Source: Hymenolepis diminuta
Lineage: Eukaryota; Platyhelminthes; Cestoda; Cyclophyllidea; Hymenolepididae
Direction of reading: 5' to 3'
DNA length: 64,000 bases
Assembly: GCA_900708905.1 (NCBI GenBank)
Contig: CAADRB010000042.1
Location: forward strand, 1,082,430 to 1,146,429
Shown: piece after piece, positions 9,376 through 46,633 of the stretch
How positions within the stretch are numbered: the stretch's first letter is position 1
How the letters are laid out: each line of letters starts with the position of its first letter
The notes under the pieces: generated by a model
Database searches by the model: none
Told to the model about the DNA's origin: nothing
Seen by the model: the letters and a program-made list of their open reading frames with translations, nothing else
Position numbers and translations under genes: made by a program

Positions 9376-9407
9376 GAAGAATATGCAAATGAAGTGAGCT
9401 ACCAGGG

Positions 9408-11922: not shown

Positions 11923-12424
11923 ATGGGCTTCGGATTCGTTGCTATTGCTTATATTTCTGCCCTTCTGTTTACCATTGCTTTAATTTTCTTTGTAATTTAT
12001 CACGTGAGGAGATATTGTTTTGGGTATAAAATACTTTTAGATAATTGCCTTCGATGAACTCAAAACAGATTACAAAAATCCAGTGGATCAATGTCGGAAT
12101 CTTAATCCACTTGTCCTTCCCGAATATTGCTTACATGCATTCGTAACGCTTATGTTTTTTCTTACGTGGCAATTGGGAGCGCTTTTCATTAACATCCCTC
12201 TACTGGCTTATCATGTACATAGGTTTATGACGCGTTCTGTCCGATCAGGCTTCGGTCTCTATCATCCAACCTCAATTCTTAATAGCTATGAACTTAATCG
12301 TGCTATGAAGGAAGGGTGGGTGAAACTCGCCTTCTATATTCTCACTTTCTTCTATTATCTCTACGGGTAGGTCTTTTTTCACTTATCACTCTATTCTAGA
12401 ATGATCGCCACTCTCATTGCCTAA
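11923..12424 (+). CDS. CNIH: Cornichon family protein (ER cargo receptor)
   Basis: Cornichon proteins are small ER membrane receptors that load cargo into COPII vesicles. Three exons: 11923-12003, 12041-12366 and 12400-12424, giving 143 residues, the usual family length (human CNIH1 is 144). The N-terminus MGFGFVAIAY begins a first membrane segment. The invariant motif IIAFDELKTDYKNP starts exactly at exon 2, followed by LNPLVLPEY, two further hydrophobic segments, PLLAYH and EGWVKLAFYI...FFYYLYG. The last residues, MIATLIA, come from a 25-nt final exon. The introns are only 37 nt (12004-12040) and 33 nt (12367-12399). An in-frame upstream ATG exists, but the start at 11923 matches the family N-terminus. 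Confidence 0.95.
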
Positions 12425-19640: not shown

Positions 19641-22600
19641 CTAAATGGGAGGCACATTCGGAAAGTCATTAGAAGAAGGCTCTAGGGAGGGGATTACAGT
19701 ATGCAGGAGGATACAAAGCGAGTGAGACCAGACGGATGCAATACAGAGAGCCCATTTACGATTTTCACAAGCACGGTGAAACCGAATCTCCTCCTCGTTC
19801 AACCATACAACTTGAACAAATCCAAGAAAAAATACAGAGAAAAGGGCAAGTATTGTGAACATCAGTATCTGCAATCCGGTACAAGTTTGGGAGGTAGTTG
19901 ATACTGAAAGACCAAGAGAAAAAATTCTTGAATGGAGGTTTTGTAGATTCGCCAGAGCGTTCCGAAGACGTGCTCGCAGAATCTGATTGTCAGTGAGGGA
20001 TTCAATGGAATCTCTATGGCCAAGACCGTGGGAAGAGTCCAACTCCGAAGCGCGTTCTAGCAGTTCCTGAATAAAACAGAAAAGAGTTAAACTGAATGTA
20101 AATATGGTACTTTCATATCCTAATAGCCTTAAACTTCCGAAATTTCGATAACAATTCAAAAAATTAATAAAGCTATTCAACTTCATCTTGACTGAACTCT
20201 GCTGGTATCATTTGCCCACTCTTGGTTGTGACAAGACTAGACACTGAAATAAACTACTCGAGAGGCTCCGAATATCGGGAAAATGAACTCATCCACAAAC
20301 CTAGGAGACGAATTATAAAATTTAAACACTGTCAGCTTGACCGCTCTCCCCGTCTCGTACATAATTGGATTATTTTGCTGCTCTCTCGCATTTCGACGTT
20401 TACTAATAGTAAAGTTCTGCTTCCGTTATGATCAAGTTCCCGCTGAATAATGCTGCAGCTACAGTAGAATCAGACTCGGTGGAATTGAGTTGAGAGAAGA
20501 CAGAATTGCGACATCTTCACGACAGATTATTCAAGGTAGCTATTAATAATGGGAAGCTGTTTCTTTCATACAATTGACTATAGAATGTCAAATAACATTT
20601 CTTTCGTATCATATACACAAACTACATCTCTCTTATTAACAATGAGGATGAGAGAGTAAGAAGACGACTAGCCCTTCCCAAGACAAACATAAACTCAATG
20701 ACTTTGAGATGTTTGTCGACGCCCTAGCGAAACTCTATTTCTTTTACTGTCTATTTATTCTCGCATTTCTGATACAAAACTGATGTGGAAAGGATGATAA
20801 GAACTTACAAGAAACCCCAAGACTAAATGAGCAAGTACACTTTTCCAAATATGACCGAATTTACCAATAATTATTAAAGTTAAGTATTTTGCCATGTCAT
20901 AGGAGATACCAATAATACCTGAAGTTTCCCCGTCACCGCATTGATAGTTAACAGATCCTGATTGACATGGGAAACGTCAGTGATGCTTCCTGAGCTACCT
21001 CCCAGCTTATCCATCAAATAATCGGCCTCAATTAGTACAGGCTCTGCTCGATCTTTAACTTCTTGAAGTTTCTTGTTCCTCTCATCAGAGATTGTAGTTA
21101 AGTAATCAGATAACCGTAATTGAGATCGTAGTTCACGTTTCACTTCAGAACATCTACAGTGATAAATTAGTTTCAGAATTGTGTATAAGTATGTGTTACT
21201 ATAAAAAGGTAAGTAGAAAAGCAAACCTGGAAGCAATCGTATCCAGCCAAGAAGGAAAGAAAACAAGCAGGCCATGGTCAGATGCAAGAAGTTTACTGCT
21301 CCGACTTTCGAAACCAGCAAAACGCTTTTGGTGTTTGATGAAAAGCATATCAACTTTCTGCCGCCAACTTTGCACTTTTTCCAAATTTAGCTGTAAAACA
21401 GGGAAAACCAATGGATTAGTAAAATAGACGGTAGATTTACTTCCTGTTACAATTTCGCTAAATTCAGATAAAAAAGAACATAATTAATTAATTTTTAATC
21501 AACCATTTGTGCCAATAATTATATATATATTTTTATAAATACCAATCATTCGAACATTTTCTATTAATAATAAACGTAAAAATAAGCATATGAAATTATT
21601 CAAAAAGTTTTTCTTTCAACTGTTTAGATATTCGAGGCTGCAGTTCTCACGAAGACACAATTAGTAATCTCAAGTCAAAAAATTAGATTCAGCTGTGAAT
21701 GCTCAACTTTCTGTAAGCTTGATCCTAAAAGCGAAACTCTCTCTACCTTATAAATCAATAGAAGGCCACTCGTTTCCAATCCTCCTACACAAAGCTACTA
21801 AAACATAAAATACGAGGACAGTAGAAGGGTTACGTCCTTACCAAAAAACTGCAAACCGGACTAGAGAAGAACGCTTTTATCATTGTCATTCCTCTTCATC
21901 GAATTTGCCCTATTTAACCGGGGAGATTGAATGATTCAGATACGCAGTACGAGTATCCAAGTGTGGAAATTCGTCCGAGTTTTCCTTCCCTTGCACTGAC
22001 TACCCTTTTCTTCTAATTGGTTAATTTTTCCTGTCCTCACTTTCTACGAACGCTCTATATTAGTCATACAGTGTTTCATCGATGATCAGTAAATAAGTTT
22101 CATGTTAGGCCACAGTCTTCGCGTTTTGTGTCTTAGTAGTTCAGTTTAGTGATAGAAGAGTTCGGAAAAAGAAGTGCAAAATCTATTAGCAACTCAAAAT
22201 TAAAGTCGAATCAAATAATACTCTTTGATATCTTGATGTTGCCCAATGTATCATTTTGATGCCCTAACTTTTAGCATTCGTTGGAAATACTGTTATTCGA
22301 CGTCAGTTGCTTCTCACAATTCAAAATTGTGCATTTTTGTATTATTTTGGGTAAAAATAATAACATTCCGAAAACTGGGAAGCGAACAGAAAGCGTACCT
22401 AGGTGAAAAGCCAATAGACTTAAAGATATACAGGTGTCACTAATCATCGGTTGAACTATCACGCGGCGTAACACACTATTGAAAATTATCGTAAATGGGG
22501 AATTATAAGAATAAAAATTGGCAGGGTTTAAAATCAACCGAATTCCGTGATTACCTTTCGTCAAATACTATATTACTTCACGCTGAAATCAATTGCTTGT

Positions 22601-25600
22601 AGAGGATTACGCACTAAAGATTAATTGTCTAATCAATTTTATTATCCGTATCTCAGCATTGTGTCCTTTTTTAATCCCTTTTGAACTGGTAACTATTTGC
22701 TACGCAATATATATTAATGCTTTGTTTAGTAGTATTAAAGCCCTATGAAGCCCAGGTGTGAGGGCGCAAACTTTCGTAGGTATCAAAGTCGGGAACTTTA
22801 GGATGCTATACAATTGTAAATTACAATGAAGATATTAAAAGCAATCGACGGAAAAAGGGAATGTTGTATCAAGACCAGGGCTTTTAATGTTTATTTCCTC
22901 AACCAAACAACGGTTCGTCTTTTTTAGGCCAAACTAAGGAGGAAAAGCACAGTTAAAACACTTAGATCAATAGCCGCTACAAATTTATGTCATCCGACTG
23001 ATAAAACACCCATAAAAAGGAAATAACTCTTACATAAACTACAATTGTGCCTGCTTAAATACAGAAGTTGTATTAAAGGTTTCTTACCTCTAAATCGTGG
23101 AGATATCTATTCCAATTCTTGCGAGTAAGTCCAGGTCGTAGACGACAAAGTGGTTTTGAAGATGAAATTGAAAGACTTTCCGCCGGAGTTGAGGAGTAGA
23201 CTTCGGTCTCGAGACTAGACAGCCATTCGATCAGTTTGGAACCATCTTGGAACACTTTGTGGAGCTTTGTCGAGTCCGTCGGTGATAGACGTAGAGCAGC
23301 GGCTAGATTTGCTAGCTAAATTCACAAGAAAGACTTAAGTTAGCTAAAGAAGCCTGTGATGAATCAAGAGAACCAGAAGATGAAGTTCTACGAGAAGGCG
23401 TGACTTAAAAGGAGGTGTCAAGCGGAAATATTATATTTTCTCAAGGGGAAATATTTAATAAAATATTTATGCCTGCTACATATATATATCCTATTTGCCC
23501 CCTTGTAAATTTTAAGGTCATAATTAAAGTTCGTTTTGTGCCTAACTGACTTGGGTATTCTCTCCATTCGAGAAAGTGGGATATCGGACATGTAGATCGT
23601 AAAAGGTAACCAAGTTATTTTTTCTTAGAAAAGGGTGGAAAGATCGAACTCACCACTTATTTCGGTCGTTCTTTTCATAATAACCTTTCGGCCGAATAAG
23701 TAAAGGGTGACCAAAGTTAACTCCCACGGGATGACAGTCTGCCCCAATTTGTGAAACCTAACTGAGGTCAACGTGAAACTGATTTTCCAAATTGGCGGTA
23801 TTGCCACGAATTTCTGGTAACGCACTGAGAAAACCTATCGTAAAAATAGTAGATCCAAGACATGAAAACAAATTACCAAAGGAAGCTGCGGCCAAGACTA
23901 TGCTTTTAGGCCAATATATGCCTTACATTAAAACCATTAGGAAATAGAAGAAGTACATTCAAGATTAGTGGATTTGGTAAGCCATACAATATATAAAGGA
24001 AGATTTCAGTGGATCAGATTAATCTTGGTTAAAAGTAACTAAGTTTAATCCACTTTCTCATGTGACTTTACATATTGATTAATTTGAACAAAGGAAAAGA
24101 AGGAAGTCTGTTTATAACAAATGATCGTTTACTTGAATGGGCTCTTGCTATTATGAATGGCGTACACTACTTTTACTATTTAGTTAGAATATAGTTCTTT
24201 GTATGAGTAATGCACTAAGGGATTCTGATGATAAATATGTCTGCATAATCGCTCATCACTATCAGACTTCTCAAGAGGGCCCATCAACCAAATCGCGAAA
24301 ACGGCCATACATTTTTTGATGCAGAGAAGGTAAAATAATCCAGTGCAAATGAATAACACAAATCCTCCAGAAATAAGATTGTAAAGGACACAGGTATGTT
24401 ACAAGAGAAAAATACTGCTCTTGACTAGGTAACACCATACAGAAAAGGTTTTCTGATGGAAGAATGAAAGATATGCTAATCTGATAGTATATGTATCCAT
24501 AAAAGTTCGCTTTTAAGACTATATCATTTCCACAACAGTAAATTAAACAAACTAATTTTTTCAAATTAAGAGTATATAGCACAAAAATGTATAACTAAAA
24601 TTAATGTTTATTTTTTCATAGTTCTCTAATTAAAACTCACGGAAAAAAAGCAAATCATTTTCTTCACTTTAATAAGCCCAGGTCGCTCTGATCACAAAGC
24701 CGATTCAATAATAAAAAGGAAGGATCAAACCAAAAACCATACGAAACCGTAGATAAAAAGATTATAAGCTAAGAGGTTGGAGGGAAGTATGAACCTGGTA
24801 TTAATCTATAAATTTGCCTCGTATTAAAAAAATTGAGAAAATTCTTACTACCTTCGAGTTAAGATTAACCACAAAATCATTCAATAGTTCAGTTTAGTTC
24901 ACTTGCTATCACTAAAGTACCTGAGATTCATATACAGAAGTTGGAGGGTTATGTCATGATGTAACGAAATATAATTATTAAGCAATCCGATCATTTCAGC
25001 ATTCAGATGGACCAAGACTCTTTCACTCTACTGACTTCTACTTTCAACTACCATATTCTCCCCGTGTTCACGTACTTCTCCATTATTTAAAATTGCAACT
25101 TATAATTTGCCACAGATAATGGTAAAGATGTATGATAAACAAGATATCATAAGGTTAAAACAGAGAACAACTTACATCCTCAGATCGATAACTGAGCATA
25201 GACCAATCAACAGAAGGACATCTGCTATAAGTGGTGGTATCACCTAATCTTGTATTCATTGTAGGATCTTCATCGTCATCATCTTCTAGTTCAAATGCAT
25301 GACCGTCACTACTTGAAATTGTGGTAATGGGTACGTAGGCTTCATCCATAGTAGTATCCACCAGAAGGCTCTGACTGTCAAATGAGGGTTTCCTCAATGT
25401 CTCCTTTAGAACGCTCCAGCCACCGCCGGCGCCTCTAGAGACATTATCTGTTGAGAAAAGTCAACAACTTATGTCGAAAATAAAACACCTAGCGGGTAAA
25501 GGAGACGTAGTAACCCTATGGATTACTCATAGTTATTTATTACCTTAATTTGGTTACCAATGAATGTCAGCTTCAGCTAACCCCTGTTGTTATTTTCAGT

Positions 25601-28600
25601 TACTTTTTCACTTTAATGTTTATGTTGAATGCTTAGCGCTAGACTTTGTCCAAAAGATATTACCTAACTGAGTCTCACTGGAAGTCATTGGCAGCACAGA
25701 CTGAGGCAAATTTATTAACTAGGATTAAAATAACTTAATAGCAAGCATGATTTTGTGAATGGTAGGGCTGACAAGCTCGGTAAAATAACAATGGTGTGAC
25801 AACAGCGCATAATGAAAATCCGGTAAAATACAAAATGTGCATCTGTCTACACCACATTCTTAAAATATTAGCTAAAAGGTTCTTTCATCAGTTAAATAGA
25901 ACTTTTGGGAAAAATATTTCTTCAGAAAGACAAATCTACTTGTAACTGAGCGGGATTTACTAAGGCTATGGAGGGAATTGCTCTGTAGCTCCATAAGAAT
26001 TGAATTAAGCTAAATCTGTTAAAACATTATCCAGTAATTGGACGTTAAATTACTATACTTTTTTTTCCTATCAGTATCAATTTTCAAACGCATTAAAGCA
26101 TCAGTAATCCATAATATTAATATTAAAAGCACCAACAAACAGCAAACAGAGCATCTAATACTAACAGGATCGGAGGGATAACCACATGTCCTCTGATGAA
26201 GTTCTTTTTTGATCAACTGATTTGACCTTTGATTTTCTTAGGCTTTGTTAAAATTGGAAAAAATATTCTAAGAACTACGTGAGCGCAGTGAGAAAAATCT
26301 TGCTATGACGTGTAGGATCTTCTCTTTGAAGAACCACATTAATCAAAGTAGTAGACTCGCACCAATAATCATAAAATACTAAATTAATAGACATCACCCG
26401 ATAAAGGTTTGTCAGATAAAATTAATCACCTTACAAATTAAATTAGGCGTTCAGAAATGCTAAAACTCGGTCAAGCGCAATGAATGTAAATAGTAACTTG
26501 AACACAAACAGTTCTAATTTCTCATGTCAGTTAAATAAGATTACAAAAAACATACACTAGAAAAACTATGAATGTCAAATCATGAATGAAAAATAGAACT
26601 GACAAGCTCGATCGAATAATAATTTTATCATTCTCATAAAACTGCACGAAAGCACAACATTCTGCAAAAGCACTATCGCGAAAATAGAACAAGATCCTAA
26701 TTCGCAAGTCTATCTCAAGGTCTGCACGCTTTAGGATTAGTCAATAGTTTTATATTATTTTATTTAACTAAAAGAACGGAAATCATAAGTTCTAAGTGCT
26801 GGTAGTGGAAATGTCAACGAACACATTACAGGTTTATTCCACAAAATAGAAGTCATCAGTTTGAAACACATTGGCGCACTTCCAGCAAACGGTATTAACA
26901 ACCGTACTGGTTAAAAATGATCAACAGAGGCACCAGAATGTAGCTTCAACACGTACGACCAGCCTCCAGCAAAGTTATTAATCTTATTTAAAATTGATGG
27001 TGTCACATTTTTCGAGTAAATTACAATACCGAAGATGAGAGTACGATAATACTAGTACGCCGCACATTCAAATGCATTTATTTTCTGTTTGACGAGAGCA
27101 AGTAAAAGTAGCCAGTAAAATGGTATCAGAATACTTCAATTGAGAAAAAATAAAATACCCCTTACCTTGAAAATTTATCTCTACGAATATGAAACTGAAT
27201 AGAAAGGAAGTAAGAATTCTGCAGAGAGAATTTTCTCCCAATACGCGCTGTTTCGTACTGTATTAAATATTCTCATTTCAACTCGCTCTCTTAATTTTTT
27301 TCAAAGAAAATTCGTCTGCATGTTCCTCATTTAACATTTTGTTAATTCGCATAATTTAACACACCTGTTGTCTATTAGCTCACTCTTAGCCAATAATAAA
27401 ATCAGGAGTTGGGCATTCAATTCCCATAACATGTGTACGCATATCAATCTTTATTATACCACTTTCGTTAGTACAATTAATAGCTTAAATTAGCTCTAGA
27501 CGATGCGAAATTCATCTTAATCGACAAAACAGCATCTGTTTCTGAATGTACAATATTGATAACAGTAGATGAAGGCACGCTGGCTTGGGAAATAAGTGAC
27601 TTCTTTGTTTCCAGTTCACACACCAAACACCTACCAAACCATATATATCACCTTCTAACTCCTACTTTAAGCCTTAAACGTAAATTCTTAGACTGGATAC
27701 CAACCATTCGAAACACTCCATAAGAGATTAAAAGCAAATAAACTCGTAATAACAATAAATACTTCACCATCACCAAGTTAATACAAGAACTATAAACATG
27801 GCCTTATCTAATTAAATTGAGGAGATTTGAACAAATTCTCGAGTTCTCGATCACTGCCTTTTCACCTTTTAAGTCCGAGAATGAGATTTCATAACAGCTA
27901 TAGACTAACTAAGCAGTCAATCAATACCCACGCATCCTAATCTATACTTCCCTAAGAAAAGTACCGTTATTGGGTGATAAGCTCTTAATCTTCTCTTATT
28001 TATTCAACTGCATCTGAGTTAACCCATGCATTATTATTACTGAGGCATTTAGAGATATTACAACGGCAACGTTGTCTAAATCAATGACGGCTCCCCACTT
28101 GAACCTAAATTCTTTGATAATGGATATTCCAATAAGTTTCAAACGTGGCCGTTTGCATCAGGGAGGACATTACTGCTATAAGTATGAATTTTGCCACTAA
28201 CAGAGATGAAAATAACATGTTTAACTATGTGTACAATGAAAAATTACACTTCCTTGATCTTGAAAAAAAGGGGGTACTGTCGAGCCACTGGTTGAGAAAT
28301 TCAATCTACCATCGCCTAGCATAACAACATTAAACAACTTTACATGACCAATTTTTGACGCTTAATATCTTATAAACATCAAGGGTGATTAAACCGTCAT
28401 CTATCACAATGCCATCCTCAAGGACGACATTAAGACTGACATTGGACATATTTTCATAGAATATTCAACTCTGAAGAAAGTAGGTGGATGACATAAACAA
28501 ATATTTGGAAACTGACAAGAAAATGTCGACAATTTTTTTTTGTAATCAGAGCTGAGTAATGAACAAAGAAAGAAATCTATATTAAAAGGATCAAATTCCA

Positions 28601-31600
28601 CTCCCTCCACTCATCCAAATTTAAAATCCTAAAGCTTTCCATCTGCTCAACGCTGAAATTCACAAACAGAAGGATATTTATAGTTCCAACTAACCAGACA
28701 GAATCGGTAGACTCCTGCACAGACATCCCTGCTTCTTAGTATCACCTCCGAGGTAGATGGTTGCCATCAAATCGTCGTCGCAATCTTCAGCCATCTCCTC
28801 CTCCTGATCTGATGATTCATGGGAAATTAGAGAGTATGAAGTAGGCGAAGTGACGAGAGCCGAGTCCTCTTCAGGCTCGCCCCCTTCTCGTTGTGAGGGC
28901 TGGATGATGATGTCGCGTTCAATATCATCGTCATTGTCAAAATCAAATTCCGTACCGTCGGCGTTGGTGGTGGAAGTGGAGACAACGGATAGAGGACGTC
29001 GTGGAGAGGATGTGCAATAGGGTCTACCAAAAGGAGAGACCAAGGTCGCTTCAGCACTGGAAAAGTTATAACATACCTGTGTGATATATTAGTTTTCAGA
29101 TGTGATCAAACCTGTAAAGTATTGGGAACTCAGTACAAAGACCTAGAAGACCCCGTAAAGAATAAGTCCTTTCTAGATCACATCGGATTAAATCGCATTA
29201 ATTACAACTGCTTAGACAGACAAACGAGACACACCTGACAACAGGAAAGTAGTCAATAATACCTAGTCTCAAAGAGTTAACCATGTGGTCCTGATACACA
29301 CCTTCCAATGATTAATCTTCGTATTGAAACACCATAAACACAAGTCAACATATTGTTACAACTTTCAGGACATATCTGCACTGTCTTAGCTATGTAAGTG
29401 GTTTGAGTTAATTCCTTTGTGTGAGCAGAATTACATATTCCTTATTGAATCCGATCTTATTGCTCGATAAGTTAAACTATCGAACTGCTAGATCCGTGAT
29501 TTTCAAAATAACATAAAGAGGAAAAACACATTCATATTTGGACCAAATACAGCTCTATAGCGGTATTTTTTAAAGAACATTGTGCATATATATGCATAAT
29601 ACATATACATGTATACTGAAAATGTTTTCAATGAGTCTTTTGACAAGTGACATGAACTTACGCCGAATATTTCCTTTTAGCTGCAGCAGAGATTGGGCTT
29701 ATGAGGGAAAATAGTTGAGCTGGAATGGAACCCCCCACCTGGAGTTGACTGGTTGAAACTTGTTTAACTGGTGTGATCTCTCCAAAAGACTTGTCTTCTT
29801 GATTACTCGAAATGGACATATCTACAATGGAAGATAGATAAAGGCAAGCGTCAGAAAAATCTAAAAAGAAAATTGTATAAATTGCAATCTTGGTGAAACA
29901 TCTAAACGCATGGGAATACCACAACTGCTCTGATAATTAAGGGAGACTCAAATTTCATTTGGGCTTCAGAATTTTCAGGTTGTGCGCCTTCCTGTTTTTT
30001 GGTTCTACCGGGTTTATTTCATAACCAAACGCTTTTACAATCATGTAGAGAATTCAGACAATACGATTTCGAAGTTTTAATAATTTCCAAACCCACAGAA
30101 GGAAGAAGGATATTCAGGCAGCTCTCTGCTTATTAGTATGGTCACTGAATGTACGCCAATAGGACTCTAAACTTACCTCGAACACTATAAAGCACAGACT
30201 CCATCAATTTACCACTCCATATTTGAATGACATAGGTATCAATTTTTCTAAATGAAAAGGTAAGTTACGTTATTTTAACCTAACTTGAGCTGACCTTTTT
30301 CTTGACATGAAGATTTCAATGAGGTAGACTTAGTGAAAGGATGTGCTTTCCGACACAATATAGAACAGAACAGGTCATGCCATTCACTGAAATTGAGACA
30401 TTGAATATGGAATCCGACCTTTGACTCGACGGACGTGGTATGCTAAAAACAAAGTCACTACCGAATAGAATTTTAATGGGAAGTATTTTAAAGAAGTAAA
30501 ACACTTTTATTGTAATTAAGCCTTTCTATAGCTTAAACCTCTTTTACTGAACCCCATTTATGTGCAGCTTATGAGTGGTTGATTCTACATCATTCAGTAC
30601 GTGACAGAAAGTAGGCTTGTAAGTGAAGGAATTAACAAGAACGCATACTAAATAAAACAAAATCATACACAAATTTGACCTTCGGCTCGATGCTAACAAT
30701 AAAAACTTGACAGGCTGTACTTTCGTGATGTCAATCACTTGTAATGACAGGGAGGAACTTGTCCAGATAGTGCGAAATAGCGGCACACAAACCGAGCCGT
30801 GTATTGCTAATTGTATACGTACAAATAACTCGAGCGAATGTGTAAAGTTATGCATACGCTAATTATCGGGTTGTGACAGAGGTTCTGTCCATATTTTTAA
30901 TTTGAATTAAAGTGAAAACTTTGTCAAAAGTACATTTATTTAGCGTTCAACATAGTCACCATTTTTATTAATTACATCTTCCCATTTTGCCATAAGCTTT
31001 CTCATTCCTTCTTCATAGAATTTAGCCAGTTTGGACTCAAAAAAGAAACCAGCTTCATTTCCACCTCTTCTCTTGAAGTAAGCCTTTGTTCCGCTCAATG
31101 ATTCTGTAAGCTCCTGAAAAGATGAAATTCGGTATGGTGGGTGATGCATGACTTCCCAGCCAACTTTTTCAACTAGATTTTTGGTTGCTCTTGAAGTGTG
31201 GGGTCTGGCATTGTCAAGGTGCGGAGTTACTCGTTTTTCATTGCTCAAAGAAGGCCATTTTTCCTGCCGTTAAGTGCTTTTGAACGAGTTAGCTCCTGAC
31301 AGCAAACTTCAGATGTTATTGTTTGATTGTCACCTATTAGTTCATAATAAACAATTCCCTTCAAATCCCACAATCCACACAAGAGAATTTTCACCGGGTG
31401 CAGTCCCGATTTGTCTCGGTTGTGGAATTGGTTTTGAATCACTGTCTTTTGAGCTTAACATTGTTGTAAAGGATCCACTTCTCGTCGCTGTCACTTATGA
31501 TTCGGTCTAAAAAAGATGCCTGAAGTTCAGTTCACGAGAACGCAGTGAAACACAGCAAGTCACACACTGCTGTTTGTTGATTTCTGACAAACTGTGCAGG

Positions 31601-34600
31601 GCCCATTTCCCGGCCTTTGAGACCTTGCCAAATCTCTAAGTCATTTCCCTATATATGATCATATGGCTTACGTTAAAGGTTTTGATCAGTTCTCTAATAG
31701 TACAGGTAGGATTTTCATCAATGGCAACTTGCAATTACTCAAAATTGAGTATTTTTGAGCATCCTGCTCTCGGTTCGTCTCTCGTCTTTCAGACTGAAGT
31801 CATCCTTTTTGAAACATGAAATTCACCCTCTGCAGGCCTTTTCATTCACAACATCATCTTCATAAGTGTCTTTGAGTGTTTTTGCAGCTGAGCTTGTCAC
31901 ATTTTCTTTATGAAATTCAAACAGTAAAATATGCCTGATATGCTCTTCATTTGGAGTGTACATTAGGGCTAGAAATAGTTATTAATAAGGATAATTATCA
32001 CGCAACCTGAAAGAATAATATTTTATTAATTACCATAGATAAGCACACAACATTAACAAGCTAAACTTAAGAATTCGTAATCTAAACACGGCTCCGAATT
32101 GGACAGAACTTCAGTTGCGACCTGACACTTCGATTCAAAATGTGGAGGCCAGGAGGCTAACATATGACTTCTTTACTGACGCCAATTGATTGATACGGAG
32201 ACTTCGTGGAATTTAGAGTACAAAAGGTTCATCAACTGGAGGACGGGAAAGAGGTCCATACAAGGGAAGACAATGATATCATGGAACTCAGAAACACACA
32301 AAAGACATGGGCTGAAAAGTCCCGGGCCTAACGAAGAAAATACAGTTTTTTTGTTCAAAATTAGCTTTATTCATCAACGCAATCTCCATCAAGAACAACG
32401 CAATCATTCCAGCGCCGCTCTAACATTTCACTACCACTTTTGTAGAATGACTTATCTTTTGCCTCAAAATAGGCCTCAGTTTCAGCGATAACCTCTTCAT
32501 TCGTGCCAAATTTCTTACCGGCGAGCATTCTTTCAGGTCTGCGAACAGCCAGTAGTCGCTGGGACCCAAATCTGGCAAATACGGTGGATGTGGGAGCAAT
32601 TCGAAGTTCAATTCATGTAGTTTTGCCATTGTTTTGATTNACTTGTCACACGGTGCGTTGTCTTGATGAAACAAAATTTTTTTCTTTGCCATATGCGGCC
32701 GTTTCTTTGCAATTTCGGCCTTCAAACNNNNNNNNNNNNNNNNNNNNNNNNNNNNNNNNNNNNNNNNNNNNNNNNNNNNNNNNNNNNNNNNNNNNNNNNN
32801 NNNNNNNNNNNNNNNNNNNNNNNNNNNNNNNNNNNNNNNNNNNNNNNNNNNNNNNNNNNNNNNNNNNNNNNNNNNNNNNNNNNNNNNNNNNNNNNNNNNN
32901 NNNNNNNNNNNNNNNNNNNNNNNNNNNNNNNNNNNNNNNNNNNNNNNNNNNNNNNNNNNNNNNNNNNNNNNNNNNNNNNNNNNNNNNNNNNNNNNNNNNN
33001 NNNNNNNNNNNNNNNNNNNNNNNNNNNNNNNNNNNNNNNNNNNNNNNNNNNNNNNNNNNNNNNNNNNNNNNNNNNNNNNNNNNNNNNNNNNNNNNNNNNN
33101 NNNNNNNNNNNNNNNNNNNNNNNNNNNNNNNNNNNNNNNNNNNNNNNNNNNNNNNNNNNNNNNNNNNNNNNNNNNNNNNNNNNNNNNNNNNNNNNNNNNN
33201 NNNNNNNNNNNNNNNNNNNNATTTGGACGTCCACTGCGTTCTGCATCATCGGTGTCTCTACGACCACGTTTGAAATCAGCAAACCAACGTTTTATTGTTG
33301 TTTCTGATGGAGCGGAGTCCCCATAACACTTTTCAAACCATTGCTTCGCTTGAACGGTATTTTTTCGCATCAAGAAACAGTGTAAAATTAAAACACGAAA
33401 TTGTTTTTGATCCATTGTTTTGAAAATAACAAAAGTGGCGTCACTCTTAGCACAATAATTCACAAACTAATGAATAGAATATCATGAAATTTTAACAGCT
33501 GTCTTTTGAAGGTTAGTATTAACTGAACAAAAGGTGACCGCAATAAAACTAGCGCCATCTATGTGTTAGGCCTGGGACTTTTCAGCCCATGTGTTACACG
33601 TCTAGACGCACCCGCACTTGGTCAAACGACGTGTCAGAATCATCCATTCCACCTCCCTGGTTAATTAGCACAAATTCAACCATTTGAGTTTCGATTAGTG
33701 TCCCTAAAATAACTAAATGTGCAGAAAAGAGTACTCGTTTTGAGTGAGATGCAAAAAAAATTGGCAAATTTCCGGTGTTATATGTTGCTCCAAAATGAAA
33801 TATTCTGTGAATTTGACCTTTAGAATCACTAAAAGCATTACAAGTCAGAAGCTCCAAAAGAGAGGAACAACAAAATGCGCGAAATACAATCGCCAAATTT
33901 ACCAAACGTCTCTCTTCAATACACTAGAATTTGAAAGCTGTAAATCCTTTTATCAAAATTGTATCCTTAATGCGATGCTTGAACAGACTTGTTATTCGTG
34001 TTGTATGCATACATTACCTTTAAATCCTAATCCGAAAGTGTTACTGACAACTAAAAAAACGTCAATCAGCAGTCCTTAAAATGTACGATGAAAATCGACA
34101 ACGTCTTACTCGAAAGATGAAGGTGTGAGGATTAGAAATTAGCGTACTACTTGGTACAACTTTCAATAGTCAACTTTGACTCGAAGACAATGTCAATTGA
34201 AATTGAGTGACAGCGCCAGATAAAAAAGGTAGTATTATATTCTAATGCCTATTAAGGGAAGCGTTAATAATACTTGAACTGGATAAAGGAAAACGTTTGC
34301 TGGAGTACAGCTCTTCTTGTTGCCCATTCCAATCACTGAACGCGCACTGATGAACATCGGTCTCATGACTCCAAACGTCCACACTAACCACTAAGCCACA
34401 AGCGCATAAAAGGTTGTACATATTCTTTCGTGTGCCAATATTGTAGAAGTCACCCAAGACAGAAGGTGAGACTCATCAATGTAATTAAAACTTGAATTTC
34501 AATAGAGAAGATTCAGATAGCTACTACAGCATTCAAAATAAGTTCTAGAAAATACTTTGAATGATCTGTAAAATTGGAAAAATAAACCTTCAATTCCCTA

Positions 34601-37600
34601 TTTATTGCAATAAAATAATTTCAAGACCATATTCGAACTTATGCTAGGCAACATCAAAACTAATGATTTTTCTTATCTAGTGACTTCAAATAAAACGCAG
34701 AATCAGAATGTTGATTATTATGCTCACAGAATTACAATTACAAAAGTAGTTAAGGCAGAATAATAAATTTGAAGTCCCTTAACTGAAGTCTTTTACATCA
34801 GGAATAGAGGAATTGGATTCTGGAGCCCATCTGATGAGAAACTCGCATTTTGTAACTTTTTAACAAGTTCGGTTAATCCAACGTTTGCTGGATGTCCACG
34901 GATGAGTATCAAAGGCGAACAGGACCTCTGAGTTTGACCAATGCGTCATTGGTACACAGCAGAATAACAATCTTCAATACCAAATCTGATTTCGCTAACA
35001 CCTTTCACGATGTGAAATTCCCGGAGGAGGCAGAAATTCAAGTTGTAAGTCGAAAACAGAAAGCATTAGAAGACCCCTGCCGGTAGGTGATATGGCTTAT
35101 TTCAGAAAGGAGTGATAAATAACAATGATTGTTAATTCACGCCAACCAACCTTTAGGGGACACCAGAACATCAGAAGGAAGAGTGAAAGACCATCTGCGG
35201 TTGATTTTGGGAGGAGTGGTGAGTTTACAATCACATCTATGGCGGCGACGACGACGCAGAGCATTGTCCGAGTCACTAACGAAACCAGACTCGCCACTTG
35301 CTTTGAAGTGAATTTGTGGAACAAGGTGGTTTGTATCTTGGGCATCTATGCATCCTCGAAGATACATCAGACAAGTGAAACAGGGCTCGGACTTAGAAAA
35401 GAACGGACGCTGAAAGCAAAGACATTGTCTTCTCTTGTTTGGATTTGACCAAGTAGACTGTGAGAGAGAACCAGAACGAAGTTTGGCTGAATTCAATTTC
35501 AGAAGCAGTGGTAACTAAGAGGAAAATAAATACGTAATTACAATATGTTTACGACCAACAACCAAGTGAATAGAAATATCTCATCTAAAGATAATTTAAA
35601 AAATAAACATTATCGTCAATACAAATGGATCAAGACTGACGCGCATATTTATATGCGAGCAGTACAACGTAGAATTTGCAAACGCGAAAATGCATATATT
35701 GATTCAGCATATCAATTCCTCATTCTAACTGTCAAGTGATCGACTTTTCCTGTTTACCGTCGAACCAACAAAAGACCCAAAATAGCCAACTTAAATCCGC
35801 GGACTATGTAGCGCGTCACAGTTCTTTTGCACTCTGTAGACATTTGTTAAGGATCATAAGATTGCAATTCTTCCTTTTATCTTACTCTGTCTGAGATCCA
35901 CACTGAAATCTAGGACTTCTGGTTTGGGAAAGTCTATTGTTCACTGTTAAAGTGAGATTAATGAGGGGATGAGTGTTACTCATTATATTTGGTATGATCT
36001 CTCGAATTTATAAATGTTTTGTGTTATGTCTGAAATTTAGAACACTTGGAATACGCTATAAAAATTTCTTTCTATTAATGAGTCATTCGTCAAAACTGTG
36101 GGAAATAGACCCCTCCAAAACACATACCGTCTCTTCGTAGTACCTAATTGACCTGTTTAGTTATGCTTCCGTCTTCTAACGTCATGATTTACGAACGTCT
36201 AAGTTGTCGCTACAAGAATTTGCAACAAAAGCGTAATTCACCCTAGACCAACGTGAGACTTGGAAGAAATTTCATTCAAATCCCATATTCATGCATTTCT
36301 CACACACCTTAACATGATCATAAACGTGCAAGACTGCTTTAAAAAGCTCTATTTCAAGGCCTAACTTAGGAGAATGGAATGGATTACTGCAATCCCATTC
36401 TATCATTCAAATAGTACAAACTAGTATATACAGTCTTCAAATACTAGATATACACTGACGATTTCCGCAGAAGCACATACAATAACAATCTTTCAAGAAT
36501 CTAAATCGGATGCTTTTGATGCACTTCACTACACAAAATTCTTCCTTAAAGTATTATTTTATCGATTACTAGGCTTCTCTTTCATACTTTGAAATCACAC
36601 CTCCATACATTCAATGCTATATAAGCAATCGAATTTTTCTAAATAAATATACATCCACTTCTGTATGCATCCTCTGAGTCTAAGTAACAGTGTAGTCATC
36701 GCATTTTCTTAGCTTCTAGGAACATTGCAATGGGTCTATATTAGCGGATACCGACAGTTAAATTAGTTACAAGGACTTACTTGATTGGGGCCCACTCCAC
36801 TAGATGTCATTTTCAACATCTCCCGCAGTTCCAGTTGTCTCACCCAAACTTCGCAAACACGATCAGCCAGCTCCAGGCTCTTGGTTTTTGCCGAATAGAC
36901 AATGTCAGACCCTTCAGTTGAGAGTTCGAACCATGGCTTCTCGGAACATGAACCCTCCAGATGTTGTATCAGCTTCTGCAAATTGTCCAAACGGCGAGAT
37001 GTTTTCTTTAGCCTTAAATGCTCAATCTACAATACAGGAGATAGAAAAGCAATATTTTTGAAACCGATAGGGTATTCCAGCAGTTAGTTTTCCTAATCCG
37101 CAGCTTTTTTAACGAAATTGATGAAAGCTCAAAAAGTGAAAATAGTGCGTAAGAGGCCAGCTACTGGACCGTGTGTTCACAACACTTCATTGACAACAAT
37201 TCCAGTTCTCAAATTCATTTTCGGTAAATAAAGAGCGAAGAGGTTACCATCATCAATCTTGTCTACTTTTTTATGATACTGGGACCGAGTAGGCTTTTAG
37301 AATTAGAGCAATCATTTTTAGGTAGCAGGTATAGAAAGTAATATCCTATTATTACTGAGATATAATAGAAACGCTGAAAAAGACATTCTTATTCATAATT
37401 ACAAATTGTCACAGTAAATGGAGAAGTTATAATAATAGCAGAAAATTAACACTTCAACTGGAGAGAAAACAGAAACAGTGGCATATAATTGGAACGTTTC
37501 CATCCCAATTAATACCGGCGAAAGGTATCAATTTGGATTTAACATATTTTAAAAAGACTTAAGTCGTGGAGAAAGGCACCACCATATTGCTTACAAAAAA

Positions 37601-40600: not shown

Positions 40601-43600
40601 GGGCACTTTTAGAGGTCTTGCAATTTCTAAGTTTCTGTGCTTCGCTTTTACAGATTCTATTAGAGCGCGTCTTTTCATTTCATTAATAGTTATAGTAGTA
40701 TCTGCCATGAGATCTGGCACAAAAAATACATTAATTATTTCCGGGTTAGTTTAAATTACGAAACCGTAACTTTCGCACTCCCCACTATCTAAATGAGCAT
40801 CAATCAAGTAATGTTCAAATAAAAACAAACAAGTGGTGGGACCGGTCTATTATACCTAGACAAACGAGTTTGAATTTTTCAAGCGATATAGAATAACTTG
40901 GCCTGAGAAATCTTATTTCCAAAAAAGAAACAATGGTGTATCGACTAACGTGTTTGTCTGTGAATTCAAAGGTTACTGGCTTGACACATACACAGGGTAA
41001 GGAATGGCAAACCACATTGATTAATTTGGGGGAAGAATTCAAGTTTCATTCCAGTGAGGCTCCATGAGGATACTCTTCCAAAAACAAGATCACAAAAAAT
41101 TTTTGCCGAAATATAATAACATGAGTCAATAAGCGGTCAGCTCATAGTTTGCTTCTTTTTCCCTATAGTTGATATGGGAAATTCTAACAATTTAAAAGAT
41201 ACCTACATCTTCTACGCCGGTTGACTACGTGTAAACTTACGATACCAGAAGAGAAAAAAAGGGAACACAAACTGACATGGTGGGAAAATCAAATTCATTT
41301 CCACGAGGTACGTTAAGCTAATTAACTTAAAAAAGAGAAAAAACCTAGAAATTCCATACCAACGAAAAATGGGAATAAAGGAAAATAAATAAATAGGGTG
41401 TTAAATTTTAAATATGATCTTAAAACTTTACCACGTCTTTTGCCTGTTGAAGAATATAGAATATCACTTTATACATAAGGTGATGGGAAATTACCTCCCT
41501 TTAAAGATCGGCACATTATAAAATATGGAAACCAATTTTTCTAGTGCAAATAAGGCGATGGAGCACCACAGAAATAAATGCCTAGGTTGGTTCAAGATAT
41601 GTGAAGATCACAGGCTACATAACGGAGTTTCAAGTAATTTAAGAAATTGCAGACGAATGTATGTGTATAATTCGAATATAGAATAAAACTTCACGTAGTC
41701 TGCTTTTTCACTGTTATAAAAGCTGACTAATAATCAACGAACTAAGGCAGCATCAAAACCGATTTGTCCAATTTAAGAACATGATTTGTCTTTGCTATCG
41801 CTGACTCATCTCTATCATTATCATCATGGTAAACACTTGCCCTGGCGATTTTCATGTGTTCCAATCAACCGTTTTCCATTTTCTATTAAATACTTAGGTG
41901 GCTAGTCATGACGCTAATTTATCAACCACCTCTTTGTTAGAGCCGAAACTAGTCTATCTTAGTTTGTTATATCCTAAGCAGCACTTTAATCCCTTAATCC
42001 AACTAGACCTAGTTAATGTAATTCCAGTTAACAATTTCGAAATATTCACAAAAATATCATTAGAGGAAAGAGAAAACAAATTTAAAGGTATTAGAATTTC
42101 ATATAACGATATCCAGTTTCATCGGACAAGTTGTACACTGTGCGAGGTTATTCAGTTTGGATAAAAAATTTCATAATTAAACGTTATTTCCAACAGAAAT
42201 GGGAGAAATCATAGAATTTAATGCTGATATATTCAAAGGGCAAAAAAAACATTTCATAATTGGCCTAATTTCATTTTCTCCTTAACATCAATCAACAAAT
42301 AACCTTACCAATAATTACCAAATCCTTCAGTTTAGGTCAAAAAGTGTTCGACATAAATAAATTCAGATTGATGCCTAAGGAAAGAATTTAAATGGGAGAT
42401 GGGGTCAGAGGGGAAAGGGAGGCAAACGTATAAAGGGGCAAAATTCTGGGCACATGACCTGATAATTAAGGACACACCTCAGGTAGAAATTTACCGTCTA
42501 AAGGTTGAATTCGATGCGGAAGTCAGCTCCAAAAAAGAGGAAAAAAGGTCAGTGACGTTACACCATCACTATCTTATCTAGATGACTTTTTAGCTTAAAT
42601 AACAGCATAGCCTAATACCATGTATCAGATAATGAGGACACATGAACCTTGCACGTTAAAGTCTTCCAATAAGTGAAAGTGAAATGAGATATCTAAGCCG
42701 GACGTAATTTATAGAATCCAGACTTCTCTTAAAAAGCCCTATTAATGCAAACGATTTGACTTATTTAAATAAGTCTTACAGCATAAGCAAGAGTTTAAAA
42801 TGTAAACATGCTGTAAGAGGTAATTCGATTACTATAAGTGAAGATGATTTTACAAGTCTCCCCTGCCTGCAAATGAATTTTAAAGTAGCATGACCAACGA
42901 CCCGGTTAAATCAGCCGGTCGACAAGTTTAAATATTGTTGACATAAACTCACCCAGAAACCTAGGGATCAAATAATGAAAGTTGAGGTTTGGGAAACCTG
43001 AAAATTAAACTCTTATGAGAAAGTATCACTTAGTTTTCAGAATTCAAATAAAGTAAAACTATTGATGTTGTAGCGGATGCTACATCAATAAGCGTCTAGC
43101 AGAATCCTCTATTATAAGTTTGCTCCCAAAATTAGCTAGGCTGTTCCCAAAGTAGCGAGAACAAGAAAGGCGTGGAGTGGAGAGGGTTTCTTGCTCCGTA
43201 TCGATGAGGTAGCAAGAATTTTATTTTATATGTGTGAACAGAGCTCCGTATGAGATGAACCAGTAAAAATTTTTAAGTGAACAGAGTTCCTTATGAGATG
43301 TCGTCCACGACCTTGGTTCTTATATATAAACAATGCTAAGATGCAGGGATAGTGACTGCTGATTGTTTGGAGGCCTCTGCAGGCGAACGCCACAATATCC
43401 TGACTTCAGTAGTATGCTCCTATTCTATCCCCCGTTTCAGCCCTTACTGGATATTTTGCTATTTTGCTTGTTTAAAAATTGTAAAAAGCCTTAGCATTGT
43501 CATGGGTAATAACAAAAATTTTAAACTATTAATGCCTAAAACAATTAAATTCACTATGACTTTCTTCATTTTAAGAAGTTATCTTTATTGGCTAACCGAT

Positions 43601-45197
43601 TTGACCAAATTTGTAACTTTCTTCGACTTTAAATCCCTTTCTCAGTCTATAAGAAATTTATCGATTTTTCCACATTATTTAACACAAACAATTTTAGACT
43701 AATTAATTGCAATTTCGGCGGTTGCCTATTCTATTTTCTCCTAATACAAATATCCAGTCACCCTTTAGTCTACTTTCTCTCTTGAGATGGTGGAGTTTGT
43801 AAGGCTGGGAAGGACTGTATTTTAACTTGTTTCATCTACCCCAAGCTATTGGTTTGTAAGTTAGAGCCTCTTGCAATAAATCCATACTAAGATCAACACA
43901 GTGCCGCATAATAAAAAATAGAACCCGTAAAAAGCGAGTCAAAAAGGTGACCACTGAGGCTGGCTATCTTTTTTTGCGATGTGGGGTCCAAAGTACTCAA
44001 CGCAGTTACAGTCGCACTATTTCAGGACCCTCGGCGAATAAGAAGCAATGGTTGAAAAAAAAGGGTTTAATATCAATACACCACATGCATGGATTTGAAT
44101 TCTTGGGGAGAAGATCCTAATGTTCAATACATTAAACAACACAAGAAAACTAATCGACCCTAAATTATTCTAAATATGTCAAGTAGATCATAAGGATAAG
44201 GCGACAGCAATTATGGCTCGAACACCAATGAAATCCAAGCTTTTCACATTCACCTCTTAAACTCCTACCTTTATCTGTTCAATTTTTACGGAAGGAAATT
44301 AAAAAAAAGGTTTTTTACACAAAAAATACTATTCACTATATGTTTGAGTATTCAATGGGATAATTTACATGTCAGAAGATTCCACTAAGGAATATAGCGG
44401 TTCAAGCACAGAAGACGATTTCCAGGTATAAATGACTGCATGAATGTTTCAAGCAGGCACTGGAAGAAAAATTTTGTTTTCAACCCCATAAATTTTTTTA
44501 GATGCTTGACCAAGAACCTCCAGTAGACAGCCATGCATGTAAAGATGGGATGGTTTAGGCATCGTCTAAATTTGTGTCATGCGGAAATTGTGTACAAAAA
44601 GAGATACTGAAACGGAAATATTAATCCGATATCACAACATCTTAACTCGTAAAAACCTCCTAAGAAATTGTCAAGCATCTTTGCTAATAAATCAATTTAA
44701 AAAAAGAAAGCTGTAAGATTAGCACCAACATACATGAAAATCAATACACAAGCGCACTCACCTTGAGCCCATAGTAAAATGCGGCAACGTTTAGCGCGGC
44801 TCTTGTTAGCGGTGATGTCAAACACTGCCGCTCAATCGAGTGAAAGATGACTTCTGTTTCTGTAAGAGAGCGAGAAAAAAAGTGGGATTTGATTTCAATT
44901 AAATACTAAATTTGCTAAGTATTATTATCAGATACGCCCTAGGGTAATTAGAATGCCTAATTTAATTAAACTAAAGGTAAATGCGGTTTCCAGACAGTAT
45001 GACTCAAGAGTTTCCCTACGAGACAATAAAGCTTTTCAATGAAGAGAATAATTCCGGCTTGGCTGAACAAAAAACCTAAATCCAAAATGTTTTACAGTGA
45101 AAATCTACCTTAAAAACATTTTTCATTAACCACTGTTATGAAAAAAATAACATTTTTACTCTAGTACAAATTTACAATTCGACAATGCAAATTAATT

Positions 45198-45230
<33 letters not shown>

Positions 45231-46633
45231 CTTCTAGTTATTAAAATAGAATGGGGAAGATATGAAGAATTTTCACCTCAATCTCCACAACAGTCAGTAC
45301 TCCCTTATCATTTTTCGATATAAATGAAGTCGACCATTAAAATAGCAGAGCATGTTTCATTCCAAAGATCCCCTCAGAAGAGCAATTCCCTAAATCTAAA
45401 TTCGCCTTTAACCGTCTTTCTCTTTTGTTTGTGTGCGTGCTTCATAACAAATCGATACAAGCATGAGAAGGTAAATAAAAGAACGAGTAATAGCTAACAA
45501 ACCCTGAAATAATTATTCATTCTGCAATGATACCGCAGTAGGTATTAGACAAAAGTGTAGCGTAAAACTCCACTTACAGAAGCTAGTGCGTACCTAAACA
45601 AAGCTGCTCAAGTTCACCTTCTAAATATTTTATATTAGCAAACCGAAAACACATGACAATCGAAGTTCAATATTTCAGATAATGAAAAAGTACATTTGAT
45701 TAGCCAAACAAATAAACAAACGAGAATGGCTAATTAATCTTTAAACGTCAAGCCATTATATAACATACCACCTTCACACTAAGACATTAAGATACTTACT
45801 TCCAGAAACATCAGTAACAAGAGATGACAGTATGGAAATCTCGTTTTGAAGAGCTAAAAATTTAAAAATTAAGGCTAATGCGATTTAACAACCATAAATA
45901 AAAAAATATTAAAATAGAACTAACTTGATAAGACAGTAAGATCATTCAAATGTTCAGCAAATGAGCGCAAATGAAATCCAACCTTATTCCACAAACAATC
46001 AATATGTTTTAGAACTTGCATGTAGTCTTTGGCAAGAACTGTCCGTGGAGAATACGAGGCATGCGAAAATATCAACCTCTGATTTGATTCTCTGAAAAAG
46101 GGTAAGGTGACAGAAAGGGAAATAGGTCGAGTGAAATGAGACAGTTGTTCCGTAAACGAGTGCAGGTGTTTGAAAGAACAGTCAAATGAAACAAAAGCAC
46201 CACTAAAATTCTGATATCGTATTTCAATACGCACAAAATATTCGCTCTACCTTATACATTAAGAGCGACTGAACACTCGTGGCAATCCAACAGCGATTTC
46301 TAATGGCTTTAGTGGCCAACTTCAGCCAACTAAGCAATTCATGTGCCTCAATTTGAAGATCGAAGATTGTTTTTAGAAAGGGAATAAAATTCCGGGAGCT
46401 TGAGCCCTTTGCAGCACCGCTCTGAATTTTAAAAGTTAATTTGATATTAACTTCACCTCAGAAGCTACAGACAGCTTGCTTACGATGCTTTTACATTCTT
46501 TGACTAGATGTTCAAAGTTTTCCGAAAAGAGGATATTATCAGGAATTGAGTATTCGAGGTATTCATTCTATAAATAAAGATAACCAATAACGTCCCTTAC
46601 CAATTCCGGAGACGCAACACACGATCCAACCAT
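19641..46633 (-). CDS. KASH-like nuclear-envelope protein (LINC complex candidate)
   Basis: KASH proteins sit in the outer nuclear membrane and bind SUN proteins with their C-terminal tail, linking nucleus and cytoskeleton. Fifteen minus-strand exons join in one frame (1027 residues): 46601-46633, 46457-46567, 46258-46421, 45925-46091, 45800-45853, 44762-44859, 36781-37026, 35151-35514, 29662-29821, 28695-29056, 25176-25447, 23088-23315, 21227-21390, 20919-21153 and 19641-20066. Residues 1-290 look helical, without a named domain. About 364-384 holds SGFVSDSDNA and RRRRRHR, a possible NLS or linker. About 410-620 is Ser-rich and acidic. About 625-930 is helical and spectrin-like (LEKVQSWRQKVDML). 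A single membrane span lies at about 951-974. The tail has Cys1004 24 residues from the end (counting itself), a Pro 12 further on, and ends NVPPI. Nesprin tails share the Cys and Pro spacing but end PPPx. No CH domain is seen. An in-frame stop 9 nt before the ATG fits this start, unless further upstream exons exist. Confidence 0.65.
21391..23087 (-). other. Intron of KASH-like gene
   Basis: Phase 0 intron of about 1.7 kb. No gene or recognisable repeat seen. Confidence 0.6.
23316..25175 (-). other. Intron of KASH-like gene
   Basis: Phase 0 intron of about 1.9 kb. Open frames here (for example 24271-24582, minus) lack splice support and any domain. Confidence 0.6.
25448..28694 (-). other. 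Intron of KASH-like gene
   Basis: Phase 1 intron of about 3.2 kb, AT-rich. No transposon, RNA or coding feature recognised. Confidence 0.6.
30940..31963 (-). pseudogene. Decayed mariner transposase, old lineage
   Basis: Tc1/mariner transposases cut and paste DNA with a DD[34]D catalytic core. Minus-strand frames carry an N-terminal part (MYTPNEEHIRHILLFEFHK), a middle part (HPVKILLCGLWDLKGIVYYEL) and a C-terminal part (LDNARPHTSRATKNLVEKV, WEVMHHPPY). Several in-frame stops and frame changes interrupt it. The region that should carry the third catalytic Asp (usual PDL.PSDY) reads RISSFQE instead. It differs clearly from the mariner at 32303 and resembles Hsmar-like elements. Terminal repeats were not found. 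Inactive. Confidence 0.8.
32367..33415 (-). pseudogene. Mariner transposase, frameshifted, internal N gap
   Basis: The start MDQKQFRVLI at 33415 begins a mariner N-terminal helix-turn-helix region (SAPSETTIKRWFADFKRG). After the N gap the C-terminal part shows HQDNAPC and PSDYWLFADLK, with 34 residues between the two Asp residues, the mariner D34D signature. Directly after LFADLK the frame shifts. The A run at 32531-32533 is one base short of what the family frame needs, and the usual C-terminus continues in the next frame to a stop at 32367-32369. With gap and frame change the length would be about 349 residues, the family's usual size. Likely non-functional, unless the missing base is a sequencing error. 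Confidence 0.9.
32728..33220. other. Assembly gap of 493 N inside mariner copy 1
   Basis: A run of N from 32728 to 33220, with one more isolated N at 32640. The gap lies wholly inside the transposase and hides the first catalytic Asp. Its size agrees with the length expected from the family. Confidence 0.98.
35515..36780 (-). other. Intron of KASH-like gene
   Basis: Phase 0 intron of about 1.3 kb with a GTAAGTCC donor. No other feature recognised. Confidence 0.6.
37190..37290 (-). repeat. Copy C of a dispersed repeat with FALYL coding remnant
   Basis: Carries the reverse complement of the shared 15-mer at 37226-37240. The minus-strand frame reads VDKIDDGNLFALYLPKMNLR and then meets a stop 10 codons later. 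Boundaries are approximate. Same family as the copies in Prp19 intron 1 and at 18.7 kb. Confidence 0.4.
37730..39049 (-). mobile_element. Decayed Tc1/mariner-superfamily element with inverted repeats
   Basis: Left end GGTGTGTAAGGCATCTGAG (37730-37748) and right end 39031-39049, whose reverse complement is GGTGCGTAAGGTATCTAAG, match at 16 of 19 positions. They flank a broken transposase gene, giving a 1.3-kb element inside the largest intron of the KASH-like gene. The ends could extend a few bases further. Confidence 0.7.
37852..38964 (-). pseudogene. Broken transposase of the Tc1-like element
   Basis: Minus-strand frames starting MADTTITDEI at 38964 show a sequence like EGGIRNVVHQHLGYKSH, then VFQQDSAPSHKALKT, then TPNLWPPNYLLDLNPFDCYVW, and end CSRFGTRIEWVIEAKGG before the stop at 37852. 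QQDSAPSHK and LDLNPFDCYVW hold the second and third catalytic acidic positions. Many frame changes and stops are present, so it is dead. The family is widespread in invertebrates. Confidence 0.75.
40454..40720 (-). pseudogene. 5' fragment of a second Tc1-like transposase
   Basis: An open 88-codon frame starts MPDLMADTTITINEMKRRAL and continues with an ESVKAKHRNLEIARPLKVPT helix-turn-helix-like segment. It matches the start of the element at 37.7-39.0 kb but is better preserved. The match ends near 40454, with no middle or C-terminal part, so this copy is truncated. Confidence 0.7.
43234..43300 (+). repeat. Short direct repeat, two 24-bp units
   Basis: Units at 43234-43257 and 43277-43300 (GTGAACAGAGCTCCGTATG... 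and GTGAACAGAGTTCCTTATG...) match at 22 of 24 bases, 43 bp apart. A partial third match (GCTCCGTAT) lies near 43193. Confidence 0.7.
45203..45229. repeat. AT dinucleotide microsatellite
   Basis: About 13 AT units, inside an intron of the KASH-like gene. Confidence 0.95.

Follow-up and report, generated by a model that had tools for sequence, protein, structure and literature searches.

KASH adaptors without CH domains are already known. Namely, nesprin-3 and nesprin-4 have no CH pair and combine a C-terminal membrane span with a SUN-directed tail, nesprin-3 being similar in size to the protein described here, and Klarsicht in the fly and UNC-83 in the worm are likewise KASH adaptors that lack CH domains. 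Nesprin-3, Klarsicht and UNC-83 connect to the cytoskeleton by way of a linker, a motor or intermediate filaments. The tegument of tapeworms is syncytial, with sunken nuclei, and nuclear anchoring should matter there; a literature search covering titles and the openings of abstracts, with subscription journals mostly outside its range, returned no published work on flatworm KASH proteins. As for the tail itself, the accessible part of one structural source (PMC6527376) names as SUN-contact positions of KASH the PPPX end, an aromatic residue at -7, Leu at -9, a hydrophobic residue at -17 and Cys at -23. The same part gives 10-32 residues as the length of KASH peptides and describes Cys-23 as absent in short KASH domains; the KASH of UNC-83 is there not a canonical long domain, has 18 residues and lacks Cys-23. 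For nesprins, it also describes that adding a single alanine to the tail end abolishes SUN binding. The accessible part of a second source (PMC10827754) describes non-canonical KASH domains, KASH4, KASH5 and KASH6 (JAW1/LRMP), that form complexes with SUN1.

Here, we analyze a stretch of 64,000 nucleotides of Hymenolepis diminuta DNA (contig CAADRB010000042.1), which we call the window and to whose positions all coordinates refer, and in particular the product of its minus-strand gene at 46633..19641, the window protein. With a probability of roughly three in four, we would read this gene as encoding a KASH-type outer-nuclear-membrane adaptor of tapeworms that has no CH domains and whose tail has drifted in the Hymenolepididae. 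Compared with nesprin-3 and nesprin-4, the window protein has weak spectrin-repeat matches, a longer, Cys-bearing lumenal tail and no Pfam match to KASH. Compared with Klarsicht and UNC-83, its tail is longer (54 residues) and keeps the Cys-23 that UNC-83 lacks. Its likeness to KASH5 and KASH6 lies in the non-canonical tail.

Results

The gene at 46633..19641 is confirmed as real. Its ortholog-corrected model joins 15 minus-strand exons without phase conflict (Table 1), and the product is 1069 residues long. The exons were chained by a small program using codon and splice-site scores and allowing very short introns, which recovered the ATG at 46633 and the stop at 19641; the program was checked on PRPF19, a neighbouring gene with four exons and 529 codons (stop counted), and also recovered several exons of a lamin-type gene. 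A tblastn search with the protein of H. microstoma finds 14 of the 15 exons in order, counting overlaps of more than half of each exon, and the matches end near the predicted splice sites. The single exon missed is exon 1, with its 11 codons, and exons 2-4 are covered by a single match that reads across the short introns separating them. When the joined coding sequence is shifted by one or two bases, 47 or 85 stops appear, respectively. The first-pass annotation of this DNA had proposed a 15-exon minus-strand chain with agreeing phases, and both this and its two gene ends turned out to be right, the comparison being limited to end points, as the junctions internal to that chain were not stated. 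Its length of 1027 residues was not reproduced: our drafts gave 1014 and 1082 residues prior to the corrected 1069.

The relatives shift the draft junctions to exon starts at 46210 (exon 4), 35514 (exon 8) and 29821 (exon 9). The 1014-residue draft, in which exon 3 ran on to 46231 and exon 4 began at 46091, was replaced, the orthologs showing the NFSGAFV segment. The 1082-residue version uses an alternative in-frame acceptor of exon 9 at 29860 that adds 13 residues; it is possible, yet without support from the H. microstoma or Rodentolepis nana protein. A first gene-finder chain had taken as exons several transposon-like frames (30.9-33.5, 37.8-39.3 and 40.4-40.8 kb) as well as frames lying upstream, at 51-52 kb, and these were dropped because the alignment of the relatives has no counterpart to them between the supported exons. 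The 14 introns range from 33 to 7735 bp, and five of them are shorter than 75 bp: 46600-46568 (33 bp), 46456-46422 (35 bp), 46250-46211 (40 bp), 45924-45854 (71 bp) and 21226-21154 (73 bp), the first four at the 5' end of the gene.

Table 1. Exons of the corrected gene model and predicted features of its C-terminal part, with database proteins given by the handles introduced in the text.
Feature	Position	Strand	Basis
Exon 1 (ATG at 46633)	46601..46633	minus	phase-consistent model; N-terminus alignable to P0002 and P0003
Exon 2 (33-bp intron before)	46457..46567	minus	tblastn with P0003 and P0009 starts at 46567; AG/GT splice sites
Exon 3	46251..46421	minus	tblastn, orthologs
Exon 4 (start ortholog-corrected: NFSGAFV...)	45925..46210	minus	P0002 NFSDVFTLSECSFEHLHSFTEQL
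Exon 5	45800..45853	minus	tblastn with P0002, P0009
Exon 6	44762..44859	minus	tblastn with P0002, P0003
Exon 7, helical region	36781..37026	minus	tblastn with P0002, P0003, P0009
Exon 8 (start ortholog-corrected), contains conserved SGESGFVSDSDN	35151..35514	minus	tblastn, alignment
Exon 9	29662..29821	minus	P0002/P0003 match from 29813/29810
Exon 10, disordered, acidic/Ser-rich	28695..29056	minus	tblastn with P0002, P0003, P0009
Exon 11, disordered	25176..25447	minus	tblastn with P0002, P0003
Exon 12, C-terminal helical region begins	23088..23315	minus	tblastn with P0002, P0003, P0009
Exon 13	21227..21390	minus	tblastn with P0002, P0003, P0009
Exon 14 (73-bp intron before)	20919..21153	minus	tblastn with P0009 from 21155
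Exon 15: last helices, membrane span, tail, stop	19641..20066	minus	tblastn with P0002, 20072-19644, 75% identity
Predicted membrane span, residues 997-1015	19806..19862	minus	hydropathy 2.37 over 19 residues; placed by codon count in exon 15
Predicted lumenal tail, 54 residues, Cys -23, -33, -41, ends VPPI	19644..19805	minus	sequence

Eleven database relatives of the window protein were found, all from cyclophyllidean tapeworms. With their identity to the draft protein, these are Hymenolepis weldensis (P0001, 86%), H. microstoma (P0002, 71%), Rodentolepis nana (P0003, 71%), Anoplocephala perfoliata (P0004, 45%), Taenia asiatica (P0005, 45%), T. solium (P0006, 44%), Echinococcus granulosus (P0007, 45%), Hydatigera taeniaeformis (P0008, 45%), T. 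crassiceps (P0009, 46%) and E. multilocularis (P0010, 44%), together with Mesocestoides corti (P0011). The order was checked for M. corti, Anoplocephala and H. weldensis, and we take the remaining species to belong to it as well. At 34-95% identity to the H. microstoma or E. multilocularis protein, the orthologs match the window protein in exon order and in helical blocks and, for complete models, also in span and tail. An equivalent start Met is present in five of the 11 (P0002, P0003, P0007, P0009 and P0010); P0008 has about 120 extra residues upstream of it, and the other five models (P0001, P0004, P0005, P0006 and P0011) start further in. UniRef names four of the relatives KASH domain-containing (P0008-P0011), and automatic names refer to PH in two (P0005, P0007) and to Vezatin in one (P0003), the basis of the naming not being visible; given the latter three, the KASH names are not uniform. 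The relatives were sought by shared 5-residue words, and no relative outside Cyclophyllidea appeared among the best ~8000 candidates scored per search, which is weak evidence of absence, since distant relatives could be missed in this way. Compared with the earlier suggestion that the protein could be flatworm-specific, our data are narrower, pointing to cyclophyllidean tapeworms only, with the same proviso about the search.

The window protein consists of two helix-rich regions flanking a long disordered middle, followed by one membrane span and the C-terminal tail. The single span claimed previously corresponds to the one strong peak of hydropathy (2.37), after which 54 residues remain up to the C-terminus. 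In the window protein and nine complete-tail orthologs alike, one strong span is followed by 49-54 residues, and in M. corti the strongest peak lies at the same place, with about 44 residues after it (a count by eye). A weaker second peak is present only in the window protein (1.76) and H. weldensis (1.73) among the 10 complete tails scanned. In all 11 complete sequences, the 15 residues preceding the span carry a higher net charge than the 15 that follow it, which fits an orientation with the N-terminus inside and the C-terminus in the lumen.

The N-terminal CH pair, a feature of giant nesprins, is absent by Pfam from the 1014-residue draft (no match at E up to 5) and from the 11 relatives (none at E up to 1), five of which share the start Met, in keeping with what the first-pass annotation had said. 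Genome-wide, a CH search gave 51 matches, unsorted as to nesprin or other genes. Spectrin repeats gave weak Pfam matches (best E 0.0058), no KLC-type W-acidic motif occurs in the 12 sequences, and sequence searches of the PDB, with a portion of the draft or the full alignment as query, gave no match. An AlphaFold model of the H. microstoma protein, built from 11 sequences, has a mean pLDDT of 44.8 and a pTM of 0.28, with low confidence and nothing readable in the tail. Within the otherwise variable disordered stretch, SGESGFVSDSDN (product residues 406-417) is nearly invariant, and its SGESGF core is found in 10 of the 11 relatives, the region being missing from the P0001 model. We take it to resemble a DSGxxS phosphodegron.

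How closely does the tail resemble KASH? Complete tails are available for 11 of the 12 sequences, that of A. perfoliata being left out, as its model omits the span and some of the tail. A PPPX end is found in seven of the 11, the window (VPPI) not among them, and a Cys exactly at -23 also in seven, the window included. Tyr-7 occurs in P0005, P0006, P0008, P0009 and P0011, and Leu-9 only in P0011. Namely, the M. corti tail, whose end LRYHMQPPPM is close to nesprin LRYTNGPPPL, has four of the five SUN-contact positions (PPP, Tyr-7, Leu-9 and Phe-17). T. asiatica has PPP, Tyr-7, Leu-17 and Cys-23, the latter three being shared by T. solium; both Echinococcus species have Leu-17 and Cys-23, but Cys at -7 (in E. 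multilocularis three positions agree, with no aromatic residue at -7), and T. crassiceps and Hydatigera have Tyr-7, but a cysteine at -19. The window tail agrees at two positions, Val-17 and Cys-23, and departs with VPPI, Asp-7 and Ser-9. The four hymenolepidid tails (window, P0001, P0002 and P0003) have in common a PPI end preceded by V or M at -3, Asp-7, a Cys at -22 or -23 and a conserved SVW(S/T)HSLC stretch. In other words, tails of Taeniidae and Mesocestoides end in PPPT or PPPM, and those of hymenolepidids in VPPI or MPPI, a contrast that offers a natural experiment on dispensable SUN contacts.

In a shuffle test (last 50 residues, four of the 11 tails, His included among the aromatic residues), the observed count of positions was matched in 63 of 100000 shuffles for M. 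corti, 89 for T. asiatica, 3037 for E. multilocularis and 18846 for the window. Consequently, the window tail alone is no evidence for KASH; the orthologs are. Pfam KASH (PF10541) matches none of 10 tails, nor P0011, while a control nesprin tail scores 58.1 bits with the same library. Similarly, PDB searches with a profile of 10 tails and with the M. corti tail alone found no KASH peptide, and a control search with the nesprin tail found nesprin chains. The length of 49-54 residues, measured in 10 tails, also exceeds that given for KASH peptides. Searched exon by exon, so that split exons can be missed, the whole genome has no Pfam KASH match over the cut-off; two places below it (20.6 and 15.8 bits) were rejected, having no PPPX tail by eye, one with an internal stop and the other in frames taken for a mobile element.

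The same genome (170.6 Mb assembly, 203 contigs) contains one SUN-domain match, of 126.4 bits. Against SUN2, the SUN exon aligns with an E of 2.7e-39, the GxCW Cys, LEH His, SAP Ser and EYTCIYR motif being identical, and the preceding exon aligns with SUN1 STRC, i.e. the lid cysteine. SUN residue numbers were placed on the tapeworm domain by counting along the sequence, and this placing is our assumption. The residues named in the accessible part of PMC6527376 are H628, S641, Y703, Y707, C601-C705 and C563. A SUN domain with both pocket and lid residues suggests a candidate partner for the tail of the window protein, and the two genes of one genome form a concrete, testable pair.

Discussion

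The KASH-like, CH-less design proposed in the first-pass annotation finds partial support. It gains from the orthologs, i.e. the seven PPPX ends, Tyr-7 and Leu-9 of M. corti, the seven Cys-23, the four KASH names and the SUN domain in the genome; that said, the window tail is itself degenerate, with its VPPI and Asp-7, and Pfam KASH does not match it. Because of the failed Pfam and PDB tests and the non-uniform names, we do not, under strict rules, class the window protein as a canonical KASH protein. We would rather describe it as orthologous to the KASH-type proteins of tapeworms and as KASH-like in its way of working, probably tying the nucleus to the cytoskeleton. In such an arrangement, the helical bundles would lie in the cytoplasm and the tail would be bound to SUN at the outer nuclear membrane. 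With no CH pair, the cytoskeleton would be reached via a linker, a motor or intermediate filaments. Hymenolepidid tails would have kept the cysteine, with drift at the proline lock and at the aromatic position -7.

Could the hymenolepidid tail instead have decayed altogether? The span would then still anchor the protein in the nuclear or ER membrane without a SUN lock, and the protein may be a helical-bundle membrane scaffold. The four tails with a PPI end and Asp-7 all being hymenolepidid, and the window agreeing at two of five positions, speak for such a loss, but we give it a low probability, as SVW(S/T)HSLC and PPI are still conserved among the four species and the Cys at -22/-23 is retained. 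Moreover, non-canonical KASH4, KASH5 and KASH6 domains complex with SUN1, as described in the accessible part of PMC10827754, and drift need not mean loss. About equally improbable is a protein unrelated to LINC whose helical bundles are anchored by the tail in ER, Golgi or tegument membranes, its PPPX having arisen by chance in a proline-rich tail. Such a protein would be consistent with the silence of Pfam and PDB on KASH and with relatives named variously PH, Vezatin and KASH; on the other hand, both Taeniidae and Mesocestoididae keep PPPX, and there is agreement with nesprin at Tyr-7, Leu-9 and Phe-17 in M. corti and at Cys-23 and Leu-17 in T. asiatica, T. solium and both Echinococcus species. 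Finally, the last exon weakly matches Pfam DUF2306 (E 0.005, 17.5 bits), which could point to some other, multi-pass membrane family. We consider this most improbable: the match is under the cut-off of 31.6 bits, drops to E 0.12 with the whole draft and is found in only two of 10 tails, and the second hydropathy peak that a multi-pass protein would call for is weak and confined to the window and P0001, the eight other complete tails scanned having a single peak.

Returning to a KASH-type adaptor with a drifted hymenolepidid tail, one can go a step further, although we hold this extension to be rather unlikely. Namely, Cyclophyllidea may have a CH-less KASH adaptor class of their own, with an enlarged Cys-bearing lumenal tail, in which the SUN coupling of hymenolepidids would have moved away from aromatic -7 and the proline lock and towards Cys-23, matched by the lid cysteine of the genome's single recognised SUN domain. 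What appears new here is the description of the putative tapeworm family as one gene, its long Cys-bearing lumenal tail and the apparent loss of PPPX in hymenolepidids.

Other features of the window

By eye, a SPEN-like gene lies at 53023-60690 (minus strand), with RRM domains at 59.2-60.7 kb and an apparent SPOC end at 53.0-53.4 kb; its 1449-codon open frame has no Pfam match at E 0.01. Searches of the window for tRNA and Rfam families gave no match. On the plus strand, there is a cornichon exon at 12041-12367 and the four-exon PRPF19 gene (U-box, Prp19, WD40) at 12592-17318. Degenerate transposase-like frames lie in introns on the minus strand (38.1-39.0, 40.5-40.75 and 30.9-31.8 kb, by eye), a trap for a naive gene finder; two of them share a DLMADTTIT...HRNLE stretch, and the two pieces searched have no Pfam match. 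Mariner-type (Mos1-like) transposase starts are found at 63755-64000 (plus) and 32423-33466 (minus), identical in their first 82 residues, the former matching HTH_48 and the latter, within intron 8, containing an assembly gap of N at 32728-33220. Lastly, a lamin-type intermediate filament gene at about 1327-9443 (minus strand), the one exon of which that was searched gave a Filament match under the cut-off (E 4.7e-06, 26.9 bits), may add a second gene of the nuclear envelope to the window.
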